Below are positions 16,260-24,810 of a stretch of DNA of 58,381 nucleotides, piece after piece (position 1 is the stretch's first letter; every line of letters starts with the position of its first letter). Position numbers and translations under genes: made by a program. Location of the stretch: assembly GCA_903845115.1 (NCBI GenBank), contig CAIMWE010000169.1:1-58381 (forward strand), in the 5' to 3' direction. This stretch comes from an uncultured Acidobacteriota bacterium. Lineage in GTDB: Bacteria > Acidobacteriota > Thermoanaerobaculia > UBA5066. The notes beneath the pieces are model-generated. The model was not told the DNA's origin. It did not search any database and was given only the letters and a program-made list of their open reading frames with translations.

Positions 16260-18731
16260 TCACCTGACGACGAGGTTCAGAAGCCGTCCCGGCACGAAGA
16301 CGGTCTTCACCCTCTCCTTCCCCGTCACCCAGCGGCTGATCGTCTCGTCGGCCAGCGCGGCCCTGACGAGCTCTTCCTCCCCGGCGTCGCGGCGGAGGAC
16401 CACCTGCCCCCTGAGCTTTCCGCTGACCTGGACGGCGAACGCGACCGTCTCCTCCTCCGCGAGCGACGGGTCGAACGCCGGCCACCCTTCGAGGAGGAGG
16501 CTCCTGGTGCCGCCGAGGCGCTGGTGCATCTCCTCCGAGAGGTGAGGCGCCACCGGGTGGAGGAGCGCGACCAGCGTCCTCAGGGTGGCGGCCTTCTCCC
16601 CCGCTTCCGCTCCCGGGTCACCGCACAACTCCGCCGCGTGCCGGGAGAACTCCATCAGGTGGGCCACCGCCGTGTGGAACGAGAAGGCCTCGAAGGCGGC
16701 CGTCACCTTGCGGACGGCGATGTGGCGTCGCCTGGCAGCGGCGGCGGCCGGGTCGGCCGGGTCCCTCCTCGGGTCGGCCCCGGACGAGAGGAAGCCCTCC
16801 ACGGTGCCCCGCACCCGGTAGAGGAAGCGCTCGGGTCCGGCGATGCCGTCGTCGTTCCACTCGGTCTCCTTCTCGGGGGGCCCGAGGAACAGGACGTACG
16901 CCCTCACGGCGTCCGCGCCCTTCTCCGCGATCAGCGGGTCGAGGGAGACCGCGTTGCCGCGCGACTTGGACATCTTCTCGACGCGCCCGCCCGGGGATCT
17001 CCTGGTGATCATCCCCTGGTTGAACAGCGCGGCGAACGGCTCGTCGAAGGAGACGAGGCCGAGGCTCTTGATCACCCGAACGAAGAACCGGGCGTAGAGG
17101 AGGTGGAGGATCGCGTGCTCGATCCCTCCGATGTACTGGTTCACCGGGGCCCAGCGGGCCGCGATCGACGGGTCGAAGGGACGGTCCGCGTTCTTCGGGT
17201 CGAGGTAACGGATGAAGTACCACGAGGAGTCGACGAACGTGTCCATCGTGTCCGTCTCGCGGCGTCCGGGCCCGCCGCACCGCGGGCACGCGGCCCGGAG
17301 GAAGGACTCCACCTTGTCCAGCGGGTTCCCCCCCTTGCCGGTGAAGGGGGCGTCGGGCGGGAGGATGACCGGGAGGTCCTTCTCCGGCACCGGGACCCAC
17401 CCGTCCTTCTCGCAGTGGATCATGGGAATCGGGGTGCCCCAGTACCTCTGGCGCGAGATCAGCCAGTCGCGGAGCCTGAAGCGAACCTTCGCCCCTCCGA
17501 GCCCCTTCTCCTCCGCCGCGAGCGCGATCGCTTCCCCGGCTTCCGCTGAAGGCACGCCGTCGTACGGCCCCGAGTTGACCATCGTCCCCTCGCCCGTCCA
17601 GCAGGCGATCGCGGGATCGGCGGAGGCCGGGCGCTTCACGACCTCGACGATGGGGAGGCCGTACTTCGTGCAGAACTCGTGGTCCCGGGTGTCGTGCCCC
17701 GGCACCGCCATGAGGGCGGCCGTTCCGTAGTCGGCGATGACGAAGTTCGCGATCCAGACCGGGACCTCCGCTCCGGTGAACGGGTGCCGCGCCGTGAAAC
17801 CGGTGAACCGCCCGTCCTTTTCCGCGGTCTCCGACTCCCTGGCGATCCGGTCCTGGCTCCGCACGGAGCGCACCCACGCCTCGAGCGCCGCACGGTCGGG
17901 GTGGCCGGCCAGGAGGCGCGGGACGAGGGGGTGCTCCGGAGCGAGGATCAGGGCCGTGACCCCGAACACGGTGTCGGGGCGGGTCGTGAAGACGCGGACC
18001 GTCTCTCCCAGGGCGGGGACCACGAAGTCGAGATCGGCACCCACGGACCGGCCGATCCAGTTCCGCTGCATCGTCCGGACCTTCTCCGGCCACTTCTCCA
18101 GGCCGTCGAGGCCCTCGAGGAGGCTGTCGGCGTAGTCGGTGATCTTCAGGAACCACTGCTCGAGCTCCCGCTGGGTGACCGGGCTCTTGCACCGCTCGCA
18201 CGTGCCGCCTTCGGCCTGCTCGTTCGCGAGGACCGTCTCGCAGGAGGGGCACCAGTTGACGGAGGCCTTCTTCCGGACGGCCAGCCCCTTCTCGAGCATC
18301 TTCAGGAAGAACCACTGGTTCCAGCGGTAGTACTCGGGCTCGCAGGTCGTGACTTCCTTGCTCCAGTCGTAGAGGACCCCCCACGCCCGGAACTGTTCCT
18401 TCATCGCGGCGATGTTCGCCAGCGTGGAGGTCCGGGGGTGGATCCCCTTCTGGATGGCGTAGTTCTCCGCGGGCAGGCCGAACGCGTCCCACCCCATCGG
18501 ACAGAAGACGTTCTGGCCTCGCTGGCGGAGGAACCGGTGCAGCGCATCCGTGAGGAAATAGGTCCGGGCGTGGCCGACGTGCAGCCGGTCGCCGGACGGG
18601 TACGGGAGCATGACGAGGAGGTAGGTGCCCTTGACGGCCGGATCCGAGGTGTCGACCCGCGCAAGCTGCTCCCGCTCCCAGATCTCCTGCCACTTCTTTT
18701 CGATCGCGAGGTTGTCTTCGTAGTTACTCAT
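16260..18731 (-). CDS. leuS: leucyl-tRNA synthetase
   Basis: 823 residues, class I synthetase that charges tRNA-Leu. Visible: [16 protein letters not shown] (HIGH motif, here HVGH), the two zinc-binding CxxC pairs (CPSC and CERC near residues 160-180), the editing (CP1) domain with [12 protein letters not shown], the leucine-specific region, KMSKSRGN, and the C-terminal anticodon-binding domain. ATG at 18731 gives the usual MSNYEDN-type start; a TTG 21 bases upstream is less likely. It overlaps the cheB relic by eight bases and is probably co-transcribed with the chemotaxis genes. Confidence 0.97.
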
Positions 18732-18891
18732 GAAAGCGCGACAGTGTAGCAAGCGGGAACCGCCGATCCAGCTCGCGGCCGATCTCGCCGAGCGGGAGGA
18801 CGAGGGCCCCGCTCGCGGCCCGCGCCGCCACTGCGGGCATTCCCTCGATGAGACGCTGGAAGGCCGAGTCGTCGACGACCAGCACCTGCAC
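18724..18891 (-). pseudogene. cheB relic (internally deleted methylesterase)
   Basis: A 55-codon open frame begins GTG ten bases after the cheR stop. Its first residues, [13 protein letters not shown], match the start of the CheB receiver domain. They run straight into [18 protein letters not shown] and GEIGREL, which match the very C-terminus of the CheB methylesterase domain (GMP...VLPLxEI). The ~300 residues between are missing, in frame. The position directly after cheR is where cheB normally lies. I infer an in-frame internal deletion of cheB; a short expressed peptide cannot be excluded. The frame ends inside the leuS start. Confidence 0.6.
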
Positions 18892-18901
18892 GGACGCGGC
18901 T

Positions 18902-19723
18902 CTACTTCCGGTAGGCGACGTCGTGGCTCAGCCGGACCATCGTCAGCGGCGTCAACGATGCCGCCAGGACGTCGGAGGGGCCGAGGAGCAGGTACCCGCC
19001 GGGCTTCAGGCGGGAGGAGAAGAGCGCGATCGCCCCGTCGCGAGCCTCCCGGTCGAGGTAGATCAGGACGTTCCGGCAGACGATCACGTCGAACGCGGGT
19101 CCGTCCGGCTTCTCGAGCGCGAGGGGCCGCGCTTCGAGCTGGACCGAGGAGCGGATCTCGTCCTTCACCTCGAGCGACCCGTCCGGCAGCAGACGGAAGA
19201 ACCGCTCCCGACGCTCGGGCGAGGTCTCGCGCAGGGAGTGAACTCCGTATCGCGCCACCCGGGCCTTCCGGATGAACGCCGGCGAGGCGTCGGATCCCCG
19301 GATCCGGACCCCTCCGAAGAGGGCCGCACCCTTCTCGGCGAGGACCATCGCGAGCGTGTAGGCCTCTTCCCCCGTCGCGCAGCCGGCGGACCAGACGTCG
19401 AGGGCTTCCCCCGTCCCCACGGCGAGCCGCCGTTCGGGAACGATCTCCTCGGAAAAGGCGAGGAGGCCGGCGGCGTCGCGGAAGAAGTAGGTCTCCCCGT
19501 TCACGGCGGCATCGAGGAGGCGGCCGAACTCCGAGGACTCCGGGGAGCCCTCCCGAAACCGGACGTAGAGCTCGTAGAAGGAACCGGCCGCTCTCGCGTC
19601 CGCGGCAAGGCGGCTCTCGAGGCGCGGGCGGCGCGATTCGTCGATGACCAGCCCGGTCCGCTTCCGGACGAGCTCCGACAGCAGGCCGAAGACCGGGTCG
19701 CCCAGCGAGACGGCCCGGGCCAT
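18902..19723 (-). CDS. cheR: chemotaxis protein methyltransferase CheR
   Basis: 273 residues. It would methylate glutamates on chemoreceptors using S-adenosylmethionine. The N-terminal helical domain is followed by [18 protein letters not shown], the SAM motif [16 protein letters not shown], and [14 protein letters not shown], all typical of CheR. The start ATG overlaps the HEAT-protein stop (TGATG). No intact cheB follows, so demethylation must come from elsewhere or be lost. Confidence 0.93.
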
Positions 19724-21930
19724 CACGACCGCCCTCTCGCCGGGGACGAGAGCGCCAGCGCCCAGCGCCGCTCGGCCCTGGCCGGAGCCGTTCTCCACTC
19801 TTTCCGGACCGCCTTCTCGAACCGCCCAGCGAGGGCCGCCGCGGCCTCCCGCGCCCCGGCAGACACCTTCTCTTCCGCGAGGAGGAGGTTCAGCGGAGCG
19901 ACCGCGGACTCGTCTCCCGCTGCGGACACGGCCCCGAGCAGGGCCTCCAGGGCCGAGGGGTCGGTCTCCGAGGCGAGGGCTCGCGACAGCGCGTTCGCGA
20001 CGGCTCCCGAGCGCCACGCGGCCCCGTTCTGCCGCACCAGCTCCGCGGCGGCCCGACGCACGGCAGGCCTCGGATCGGCCAGCGCGAGCGCCGCGACGGC
20101 CGACGCGGGCTCCGGCCTCGCCACGGCCTGAGCGAGCAGCGCCGCTCGCGCCGTCTCGGTCTCCTCGTGACTCACCGCGAGCGCCACGCTCTCCGCCGCG
20201 TCGGCGTCCCCGGTCCGCGCGATCTCCTCGAGAGCCGCGAGCCGTATTTCCTCCCCCTGTGCCAGGAGCTCCTCCGCCATCCGCGGGCGGTCCGGTCCCG
20301 CGAGCGCGATGATGGCGGCCCCTGCCGCCGATGCCGCCGGCGCCTCGTCCGCCAGGAACACCAGGCAGTCCCTCCAGCCGAAGGGAAGGTCCTCCCGCCC
20401 TCGCTCCGCCCAGCGCGCGACGGTCCGGAGGGCCGCGGCCCGGACGGCGGGAGCCGGGTCCTCGAGGCATCCCCTGATGACGTGTGCGGGAAACGCCAGC
20501 CGGCCGGCGGCCGCCCGGACCGCGGCGGACCGAACGTCGGGATCGGGCGACCCCATTGCGCCGACGAGGGCAGCCTCCGGACCCGGCCCGTCGACGTCAC
20601 CGAGCGCCAGGAGGGCCCCGACCCTCCCGGGCCCGTCGGCACCTTCGGCCCGGTCGAGCAGCGCCCTGACCTGGGCGTCTCGCCGGTCCGGGGGCGTGTC
20701 CGGGGCGGAAGCCGCGAGAGCGAGAGCCGCCGGAAGAGAGGTCTCGGGATCCTCTTCCGCCAGGATGTCGATCAGGTCGGAGAGACGGGCCGTTCCCGGC
20801 GGCAAGCTGTTCAGCACGGCCGCCCGGACGGCGGAAGCCGGATGGACGAGGAGCGGAGCGAGGAGAGAAGGCTCGTCCAGCTCCATCACCCGATCGACGA
20901 GCACGAGCGCCGGCTCTGGGTCCTCGCTCTGCAGGACGGCGTGGAGCGCTTCCTCGATCTGCGAACGGGACAGGCAGGCGAGGCACGAGAACCCGTCCGG
21001 GAACGGACCGGCCCGGAGGATCTCCAGACACGCTCCACTGAGGTCGAGGAGGAGGACGACGTGCGCGGCATCGCTCCGGAACCCGGGCGAGGCCTGGTCG
21101 GACGCCACGATCTGGACGAGCGCGTCCAACGCCCCGGGCCACAGTCCCCGGACGAGACCGGCGGTCTCCTCGGTCCCCGCCTCCAGGCCGCTCCGGAGAG
21201 CGCGGACGAGGTCGGCGTCCGGCCCCTCCTGGGCCGCGATCCGGGCGAGCTCGTCGACCGACCTCGACGTCCCGAGCCTCGCCATCGCCCGGAGCGCGCT
21301 CCGGCGAAGGGCCGGGTCGGCGATCCGGGCGACCAGGAATCCAGACGTGTCGGGGTCGCCGATCTCTCCCAGGGCCTCGATCGCGTGGACCTTCGTCCAG
21401 GTGGTTCCGTGCTCGAGGTGGAGAAGGAGATCGGGTACCGCCTCCCGCCGCTTCGTGCGGCCCAGCGAGAGCAGGAGCGCCGCGCGGACGTTCGCGTCCC
21501 TCTCCCTCTCGAGGGCCGCGCTCAGGGCGCCGACCGAATCGTTCACCGGTCCGGCCGGGGGAAGGCTCATGGCCCCGGCGAGCCTCACGTCCGCCGAAGG
21601 GCTCTCGAGGGCCTGGAAGAGGAACCGGGCTCCGGGACGTCCGGCGGCGGAGAGGAGCGCGACCGCCGCCCCGCGGTGACCCGCGTCGGCCTCGTCGCCG
21701 AGAGCGGCGAGACAGAATTCCCCGACCCTGTCCGTCAGGCGGCCGGCGAGAGCCGCGACGGCGCGATCGCGGACCCGGTAGTCGGAGTCGTGCAGCATTC
21801 CGAGGAGCAGGGTCTCCGCCTCCTCTCCCGGGATGTCCGCCATGAGGGCCGCCGTTCGCCAGCGGACGGTCGGATCCGGCACCCCGGAGTCGGCGGCCAG
21901 CGAGGCGAGCGGACCGGAGAGGTCCTGCAT
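19723..21930 (-). CDS. large HEAT-repeat protein of the chemosensory operon
   Basis: 735 residues built almost wholly of HEAT/PBS-lyase-like helical repeats, for example [54 protein letters not shown] and [14 protein letters not shown]. No signal peptide or membrane span, so it should be cytoplasmic. HEAT arrays are protein-binding solenoids. It sits between cheW and cheR with start/stop overlaps on both sides, so a role as a scaffold or output adaptor of this pathway is likely. Myxococcus Che7 also includes a HEAT-like protein (Cpc7), which is a known parallel, not proof of orthology. Confidence 0.8.
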
Positions 21931-22358
21931 CACCGCTTCCCCCCTCCGAGCACTTCTTCGACGGTGACGATCCTCAGGGCCGGCCCGTCGCCGGGAGCGC
22001 CCTCCCGGACGTTCCCGCCCTCGGGCGAAGCGAGCACGCCCGCCTCGTCGGAGATCTCCTCGACCGACTCGATCCGGTCGACCAGCAGCGCGTGCCGCTC
22101 CCCCTCGAGAATCACGAGGAACTGCCCCGTCCTCTCGCCATCCCTCTCCGTCGGGCCGCACCCCAGGGCCCGGGCGACGTCGAGGACGCCCAGGGGCTCG
22201 CCGCGCACGAACGTCACCCCGGCATATTCCGGGGGGGAGCCGGGGAGCGGGACGATCTGCCGCGCCCGGGCCGCCCCCTGGACGCGGTCGACGGCCAGCC
22301 CGAAGCGCCCGCCGCCCACCCGGAAGACGAGGTAAGGCGAGCCGGCGTTCGGGCTCAT
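21930..22358 (-). CDS. cheW: chemotaxis adaptor CheW
   Basis: 142 residues, a single CheW domain linking receptors to CheA. YLVFRVGGGRFGLAVDRVQG opens the fold, split here as YLVFRVGGG and RFGLAVDRVQG, and VRGEPLGVLDVARALG and ALLVDRIESVEEI are the usual later strands. ATG at 22358 overlaps the cheA stop (ATGA), and its own stop overlaps the HEAT gene start. Confidence 0.93.
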   Translation of the reverse strand: MSPNAGSPYLVFRVGGGRFGLAVDRVQGAARARQIVPLPGSPPEYAGVTFVRGEPLGVLDVARALGCGPTERDGERTGQFLVILEGERHALLVDRIESVEEISDEAGVLASPEGGNVREGAPGDGPALRIVTVEEVLGGGKR

Positions 22359-24391
22359 CTCACCCCTCCCGCGAAGGCCCCGCGGGGAAGCGCGCTCGAC
22401 AGCAGGAGGCCGGCGTCGATCGTGAGCGCCAGGCTCCCGCCGGGAAGCTCCGCGGCTCCCGTGACCTCGCGGCTCCGGGGGATGACGTCGGCGAGAGGCT
22501 TGACGATCACGTCCTCCATCCCCTCGATCGACGAGACGGTGAAGCCCGCCCTCAGGGGACCCTGCTCGACCACGACGACCGTCTCGTCCAGCGCCTTCCC
22601 CGGCGATCCCAGCCCGAGGTGAGCGGCGAGGGAGAAGAGCGGCAGCGGCTCCCCCTCGTCCTCGGTCACCAACGATTCGCCCCGCCGCTCGACGCGTGCC
22701 GGATCGGCCCGGAACGCCCTTCTCACGCCGGAGGTCGGCAACGCCAGGAAGAAGCCTTCCGCGCGGACGAGAAGGGACTCCACCAGGACGAGCGTCATCG
22801 GCACCTGCACCTCGAAGGTCGTCCCCTTGCCCGGGGTCGAGGTCACGCGGACGTCGCCCTTGAGCTTCGCGAGGTTCGCCCGGACGACGTCGAGGCCCAC
22901 TCCCCGCCCCGAGATCGCGCTGACCGTCTGGGCAGTGGAGAAGCCCGGCAGGAAGACGAGGTCGAGCGGATCGACCGGATCGGGCTCGAAAGGAGAGAGG
23001 AGGCCCTTCTCTCGCGCCCGACGGACCAGCCTCTCTCCCTCCATCCCGCGGCCGTCGTCGGCGAGCGTGAAGGCGACCGAGCGCCCTCTGGTTTCCACGA
23101 CGAGCGTCAGGCGCCCGGCCCTGGGCTTTCCCGCAGCCTCCCGCTCGGCGGGGAGCTCGATTCCGTGGTCGAGGGCGTTCCGGACGATGTGGAGGAGCGG
23201 GTCGGTCAGCTCCTCCGCAAGGACCTTGTCGATCTCGGTCTCTCCCCCGAAGACGTCGAACGTCACCTCCTTGCCGAGGGAAGGGGCCATCGAGCCCACC
23301 ACGCGGGAGAGCCTCGCGGTCAGCTGCTCGACCGGGACGAATCGCGTCGCCAGGGCCGCCCTCCCGAGAGCCGTGACGGTCCGGTCGAGGTCGGCGAAGG
23401 CCTTCTGCGCCTCGAACCGTGCGGCCCGGTCGGTGGCCGTCGCGAGGACCTTTCCCAGCGAGCGCTTCAGCGCCCAGCGGGAGAACGCCAGCTCGCCGGT
23501 GAGGTTCACCAGGAGCGCCAGCTTCTCGAGCGGGACACGGACCGTCCCTCCCATCGGCCGGAAGGACGGACGCCCGTCGCGACCGGGGACGAAAGCCGGC
23601 AGCTCGGGGACCGCGCCCGGCGCCTCGGGCTCGCGTCCCCCTCCCTCGAGCACCTCCACCACCGAGGCCCCGGCCCGGGACGAGACCCCGTCGAGCGGCA
23701 GATCCGCGGGGAACCCTCCGAGGAGCCGGAAGACCATCCTCGACGGGTCCTTTCCCGCTCCACCCGGAAACGTCCCGACCAGCTCTCCGCTCCGGGAGAC
23801 CTCGTCCATGGCTTTCCGGAGTCCCTCGTCGAACGAGTCGAGAGGCAGCTCCAGCGTCAGGAAGGCCAGGCGCCTTCCTCTCCTCGCGCACTCCAGTAAC
23901 CGGTGCCTCTCGTAATCCGTCAGCATCCGGTCCAGGTCCGGCGGAAGGCGCGGAGCGTCGCCCGCAGCCGCCGCGTCTCCGGAGCGCCCCGCGGCCACGG
24001 TGCGGAGAATCCTCTCGGAGGCCCCGTGCGGGAGCTGGGGATCCGGCTCCCCTGCCTCGATCCTCGCCGCCGCCCCCGCGATCGCCTCGAGCGCTGCCGC
24101 GACGACCTCCAGCACCTCGGTCGAATGGTCGATCCGGCCCATCCGCAGGGCGTCGAGAAGACCCTCCAGATCGTGCGCGAGCCCGGCGAGCCGGGAGAAT
24201 CCCGCCATCGCCGAGAGGCCTTTCACCGAGTGAATGGCACGAAAGAGAGCGTTGACCGAGCCCGCGGGAGCCTCCCCCCCCGCCTTTCCGAGCAAGGCGA
24301 CGGCGTCCCGCGATTCCTCGAGCAGGCCGTCCATCTCGGCCAGGAAGTCCTTCCGGTCGAGCGCCTCGAAGCCCCGACCCGCGCGCTTCAC
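22355..24391 (-). CDS. cheA: chemotaxis histidine kinase CheA
   Basis: 678 residues. The N-terminal Hpt domain holds the phosphorylated histidine (His54 in AIHSVKGLSAMAGF). A middle region with no clear P2 domain is followed by the P3 dimerisation helices, the HATPase core (IVRNALDHGIELP, ADDGRGM, GRGVGLDVVRANL), and a CheW-like C-terminal domain. It would pass phosphate to the response regulator encoded just upstream. Start GTG at 24391 overlaps that gene's stop (GTGA). Confidence 0.94.
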   Translation of the reverse strand: MKRAGRGFEALDRKDFLAEMDGLLEESRDAVALLGKAGGEAPAGSVNALFRAIHSVKGLSAMAGFSRLAGLAHDLEGLLDALRMGRIDHSTEVLEVVAAALEAIAGAAARIEAGEPDPQLPHGASERILRTVAAGRSGDAAAAGDAPRLPPDLDRMLTDYERHRLLECARRGRRLAFLTLELPLDSFDEGLRKAMDEVSRSGELVGTFPGGAGKDPSRMVFRLLGGFPADLPLDGVSSRAGASVVEVLEGGGREPEAPGAVPELPAFVPGRDGRPSFRPMGGTVRVPLEKLALLVNLTGELAFSRWALKRSLGKVLATATDRAARFEAQKAFADLDRTVTALGRAALATRFVPVEQLTARLSRVVGSMAPSLGKEVTFDVFGGETEIDKVLAEELTDPLLHIVRNALDHGIELPAEREAAGKPRAGRLTLVVETRGRSVAFTLADDGRGMEGERLVRRAREKGLLSPFEPDPVDPLDLVFLPGFSTAQTVSAISGRGVGLDVVRANLAKLKGDVRVTSTPGKGTTFEVQVPMTLVLVESLLVRAEGFFLALPTSGVRRAFRADPARVERRGESLVTEDEGEPLPLFSLAAHLGLGSPGKALDETVVVVEQGPLRAGFTVSSIEGMEDVIVKPLADVIPRSREVTGAAELPGGSLALTIDAGLLLSSALPRGAFAGGVR

Positions 24392-24810
24392 GCCTTTCCT
24401 CTGTCTGATTCGAGGACCTCGGTGAGGAGGCGGTCGAGCGTCTCCGCCTCGAAGGGCTTGGCCAGGTACCCGTCCGCTCCGGCGGTCCGGGCGAGAAGGA
24501 TGTCCTCGGCCTCCCTTTCCGTGGAGATCGCGACCACCGGGAGCATCCTCTGCTCCGGCCTCGCCCGGATGAGCCGGATCAGCTCCAGGCCCGACAGCGA
24601 CGGCATGTTCACGTCGGTGAGGACGAGGTCGAACGGCTGCCGCGGCAGGAGGCGAAGAGCCTCGAAGGCGTCCGAGGCCTCGGTGATCACCGCCCGGCGG
24701 CCCTGCCGTCTCCCGCTCGAGATCACCGCGTCCGAGATGAGGAGCCTGGCCGCCGGCGAGTCGTCGACGACGAGGACGCGAAGCACGGGAGTATCGGCCG
24801 GGAGGCTCAT
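24388..24810 (-). CDS. single-domain response regulator (CheY-like)
   Basis: 140 residues, only a receiver domain. Acidic pocket Asp16-Asp17 in VLVVDDSPAAR, phosphorylation site Asp66 in LVLTDVNMPS, and Lys118 in YLAKPFE. There is no output domain, so it should act by protein contact, as CheY does on the flagellar motor, or as a phosphate sink. It is translated directly ahead of cheA, its likely kinase. ATG at 24810 overlaps the transglutaminase stop. Confidence 0.9.
   Translation of the reverse strand: MSLPADTPVLRVLVVDDSPAARLLISDAVISSGRRQGRRAVITEASDAFEALRLLPRQPFDLVLTDVNMPSLSGLELIRLIRARPEQRMLPVVAISTEREAEDILLARTAGADGYLAKPFEAETLDRLLTEVLESDRGKA

Follow-up and report, generated by a model that had tools for sequence, protein, structure and literature searches.

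Between cheR and leuS in the genome of an uncultured Acidobacteriota bacterium, at the place expected of cheB, lies a frame of only 55 codons. What this frame once encoded, how its middle was lost and why its two ends remain are the questions raised by the locus. The window considered here is a 58,381-nucleotide stretch, contig C169 among the 305 into which this 5.85 Mb genome is assembled, and the features discussed are collected in Table 1.

Table 1 Coordinates of the cheB remnant and neighboring features within the window
Feature	Position	Strand	Basis or remark
leuS, leucyl-tRNA synthetase	16260..18731	(-)	68-76% identity to relatives' leuS
cheB remnant	18724..18891	(-)	55 codons, GTG start at 18891, TAA stop 18726-18724
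3' piece, last ~40 codons of CheB methylesterase and stop	18724..18849	(-)	alignments; family lengths; shuffles
TACACT, -10-like element of leuS	18743..18748	(-)	11 bases before leuS ATG, inside remnant
5' piece, codons 1-14, start of CheB receiver domain	18850..18891	(-)	aligned with 10 CheBs; shuffles
cheR, open, full length	18902..19723	(-)	PF01739 E 9.8e-44; alignment
HEAT-repeat protein (frame; likely start near 21935)	19723..22161	(-)	PF13646 E 2.2e-29; kept in relatives
cheW (upstream limit approximate)	21930..22358	(-)	PF01584 E 1.6e-16
cheA	22355..24391	(-)	Hpt, HATPase_c and CheW domains
cheY-type response regulator	24388..24810	(-)	PF00072 E 1.1e-23

The frame between cheR and leuS

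The remnant begins 10 bases beyond the cheR stop (18902), and its translation consists of 14 receiver residues followed directly by 41 residues from the end of the CheB methylesterase. When aligned with 10 CheBs from relatives, residues 1-14 pair with residues 1-14 of these proteins, and residues 15-55 pair with their last ~40 residues. The alignment score of the N part was reached by none of 2000 shuffles, as was that of the C part, and removal from the C part of the stretch that also encodes the leuS -10-like element left a score reached by none of 5000. In a comparison of the 589 stop-to-stop frames of 35-400 aa within the window for likeness to both CheB ends, the lower score of the remnant is 52 and that of the next best frame is 29; no other frame among the remaining 588 clearly resembles both ends. 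The alignments and shuffles agree with the first-pass annotation, which had described a receiver start and a methylesterase end joined in one frame. As that annotation also noted, the remnant stop overlaps the leuS start: the TAA and the leuS ATG (18731-18729) lie within 8 shared bases, ATGAGTAA.

The remnant shares with an ordinary CheB (receiver plus CheB_methylest, PF00072 and PF01339) the N-terminal 14 residues, the C-terminal ~40 residues and the place after cheR, but differs from it in lacking ~300 residues, including the phosphorylated aspartate and the catalytic part. In agreement with this difference, no PF01339 match to the catalytic domain is present at the remnant locus, no PF00072 match to a receiver with a phosphorylatable Asp is seen where only 14 N-terminal residues are left, and no Pfam family scores above the cut-off for the remnant. 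As read from these alignments, the frame is a cheB pseudogene stub that has lost both the phosphorylated aspartate and the catalytic part, and is no longer a CheB. No paper on this cheB remnant was found within one library and the terms used.

The missing 0.9 kb and the same interval in relatives

Of the 13 other genomes in the family comparison, eight have an intact locus, four lack the block and one, from the same genus (G001), is unreadable at the cheB site. In the eight (G003, G004, G005, G006, G007, G009, G011 and G013), cheR is followed by a full-length cheB (351-363 aa) and this in turn by leuS; the locus of G005 is divided between two contigs, the second of which carries the complete cheB. 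At the level of the order, the locus was read in two of five genomes (G014 and G016), and the cheB between cheR and leuS encodes 345 and 341 aa. A full-length CheB (341-363 aa) rather than the short frame therefore occupies this place in all 10 relatives with a readable interval (eight from the family, two from the order). The case that the first-pass annotation named as refuting, relatives that carry the short frame without likeness to their own CheB ends, is not encountered among them.

Relative to the family cheB lengths, 891-933 bases are missing from the remnant. Because a full-length cheB stands at this place in the eight family and two order relatives, an in-frame loss of ~0.9 kb that cut an ordinary cheB to a stub is quite probable. 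The proposed course starts from a chemosensory operon, cheY-cheA-cheW-HEAT-cheR-cheB, probably non-flagellar, with an ordinary cheB as its last gene; one internal deletion in this cheB, frame-keeping by chance, would have produced the pseudogene. This explanation as a whole is held with good confidence, based on the homologous ends, the synteny, the lack of another orthologous cheB and the open neighboring genes. The deletion junction can be placed only approximately, near 18849/18850. The remnant resembles other in-frame internal-deletion pseudogenes in that both ends are in one frame, the middle is gone and the neighbors are intact, but differs from them in that its 3' end probably doubles as the leuS promoter region. 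A search of the relatives' cheB genes, which are not the ancestor, revealed no direct repeats longer than 5-7 bases at the break end points in eight relatives, and no recombination route is thus evident.

The deletion is known from one assembly, and an assembler that dropped ~0.9 kb or joined strain variants while a complete cheB exists in the cell would leave the same picture. A single assembly in 305 contigs gives room for such an artefact, but several features make it unlikely. The end points are without a long repeat in the eight relatives (5-7 bases at most), 14 other window frames, each compared with five matching relatives, show no length difference greater than 11 aa, and the alignment with the same-genus contig runs unbroken through 9.4 kb of the block. 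In addition, the frame is kept across the junction, for which the chance is 1/3. The repeat and frame-length checks speak, though not conclusively, against careless assembly. The preferred reading is that the in-frame deletion would be present in the organism and not in the assembly alone.

The identity of the C piece to the eight family CheBs is 0.33-0.61, compared with 0.39-0.61 between intact CheBs of different genera; the lowest value, 0.33 against L007, is slightly under the intact range. For the N piece, the identity is 0.64-0.71, compared with 0.64-0.86. Since the retained ends diverge about as much as intact CheBs do between genera, no decay after the deletion is visible in their sequences, and a young deletion probably accounts for its absence. 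The cheY, cheA, cheW, HEAT and cheR frames are all open. Relative to G001, dN/dS is 0.10 for cheY, 0.18 for cheA, 0.28 for part of the HEAT gene and 0.10-0.18 for five neighbor genes, values that average over a time possibly longer than that since the deletion. By this measure, cheY and cheA are under purifying selection. Across the family and the order, this chemosensory operon regularly includes the gene for the HEAT-repeat protein.

The deletion is seen only once because the sole same-genus genome breaks off before the site. The match of this genome (G001, with a completeness of 77%) to the window spans the 9.4 kb at 83%; its contig stops short of cheR, within the HEAT gene, and neither cheR nor an orthologous leuS nor any CheB match is present in its assembly. 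In a sister genus (g2), the loss is larger: in all four genomes (G002, G008, G010 and G012; loci L097, L098, L099 and L100), a transglutaminase gene is followed directly by leuS, the whole che block is absent, and no MCP match is found. Based on these four genomes, che loss recurs in the family. The relatives thereby show both the intact cheB state and the complete removal of the block. The cheB stub is an ordinary gene-loss event, cleanly recorded, and provides a clean, probably recent snapshot of chemosensory gene loss.

The leuS upstream region and the retained 3' end

The three bases ahead of the -10-like element inside the remnant are TGC, which resembles the context of an extended -10 (TGC-TACACT, 18751-18743). 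In 15 leuS upstream regions, from the window, the eight family genomes, the four without these che genes and two of the order, a TANNNT is found 9-13 bases before the leuS ATG in every case, against 0.31 expected in a shuffle control, a figure that serves as a guide only, as the shuffles preserve the composition in bases but not in dinucleotides, and the 15 genomes are relatives of one another. Within the family, the element reads TACACT or TAGACT. A generic sigma-70 two-hexamer scan of 18500-19100 found no promoter, and for this reason the element rests on its conservation across genomes. Its position relative to cheB varies: the window, L006 and L008 have it within the cheB frame and L007 at the cheB stop, and in the other genomes it lies in the cheB-leuS spacer or is present without any cheB.

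According to PMC3160421, a bacterial TANNNT ~12 bp before a start most probably marks a leaderless gene, and Acidobacteria are listed there among the groups with such genes; the same layout is described for Deinococcus-Thermus in PMC12340547. The leuS gene is like the leaderless genes of PMC3160421 in having the -10-like element 9-13 bases before its ATG in 15/15 genomes. This arrangement suggests that leuS is leaderless in this lineage. In addition, leuS probably has its own promoter, and the cheB 3' end probably survives as the carrier of the -10-like element. Because the probable leuS promoter is located within it, the cheB tail probably had to stay: as holder of this promoter, the 3' end would be kept, since further deletion would harm leuS, which is essential. 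At the 5' end, the boundary would simply be where the break fell. The locus suggests that a deletion can be held back by the promoter of an essential gene downstream, and that the end of a pseudogene may look conserved for reasons that have nothing to do with the former protein.

The first-pass annotation had instead raised the possibility that the overlap couples leuS translation to the remnant. Of the nine family genomes in which the junction is present, only three (the window, L006 and L008) have overlapping cheB and leuS frames; in the others, 14-37 bases separate the two. Coupling is therefore not a conserved feature, and it is not accepted as the chief explanation for the survival of the 3' end, given that the -10-like element is found in 15/15 genomes, including four without this cheB. 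Similarly, it is very improbable that the stub persists because it functions, be it as a small protein or as a translated leader coupled to leuS. The frame is open, its ends are not visibly decayed, its codon-position G+C is gene-like (0.80/0.45/0.82) and the 8 bases are shared with leuS. However, the phosphorylation site and the catalytic part are gone, no Pfam family exceeds its cut-off, the overlap is limited to the three genomes, leuS has its own conserved element even where cheB is absent, and the absence of decay is explained by a young deletion.

Demethylation and the receptors of the pathway

A domain search of the assembly identified four other CheB_methylest domains and seven CheR domains, the latter including the cheR of this cluster. 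None of the four other CheBs groups with the leuS-cluster CheBs, whose family clade has a support of 100/100, and the top two full-length matches elsewhere in the genome reach 40% and 36% identity to a family CheB. Two of the four share a frame with a CheR domain (C194 and C132) and two adjoin another cheA (C211 and C67). All four are thus of other lineages, and the search shows, at the level of sequence, that an orthologous cheB is absent elsewhere in the assembly. These domains, together with the ~4% of the genome that is missing by the completeness estimate and could hold a copy, are what a relocation of cheB, with the stub left behind, could appeal to. Such a move is hardly to be expected, as the four CheBs fall outside the leuS-cluster clade and have CheR or cheA partners of their own; if they act on the receptors of this pathway, as they may, this would be substitution instead. 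Relocation is not supported.

The output of the pathway is probably non-flagellar, because no flagellin match was found in any of the 14 family genomes (G000 and the 13 others), and a pilT-family match is present in all 14. Type IV pili are a possible, unproven output, as pilT is also found in the genomes without che genes. The receptors of the pathway are likely those on contigs C82 and C273, because the two main receptors of G004, a genome with one CheR match and one CheB, are orthologous to them. A third, weaker MCP match in G004 is of a kind not found in the window genome. Based on a consensus for methylation sites that is presumed here, the C82 receptor has a putative methylation-site motif at -141 and +161 from the hairpin tip. 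Most of its orthologues likewise have putative motifs at these two positions (8/9, and 8/8 of those having sequence there). The C273 receptor, which has a C-terminal SBP_bac_5 domain, belongs to a group that keeps a putative motif at +161/162 in 6/6 members.

Of the proposal that demethylation is lost from this pathway, the loss of the dedicated demethylase stands. Lost adaptation is not established, as four CheB_methylest domains, an open cheR and receptors with putative methylation sites are kept. Three readings fit the sequence: a CheB from another cluster may now demethylate these receptors, the loss may be recent, or the pathway may have lost adaptation. In the proposed course of events, the function would have been taken over by another cluster's CheB or lost while CheR still methylates. 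A pathway with its own CheR and no CheB of its own, in which demethylation would be cross-pathway or receptor methylation one-way, with the 55-residue stub maybe still translated, is a rather doubtful proposition. The remnant raises the question of whether one CheB serves several pathways in a cell.

Two further observations concern the MCPs of this family. A short, divergent MCP-like protein (~400 aa; L126, L125 and L127) is encoded in several family genomes and was not found in the window genome. Finally, L053:694-3528 encodes a receptor whose SBP_bac_5 solute-binding domain is C-terminal to the MCP signalling domain, an apparently unusual arrangement, and has orthologues in the family.
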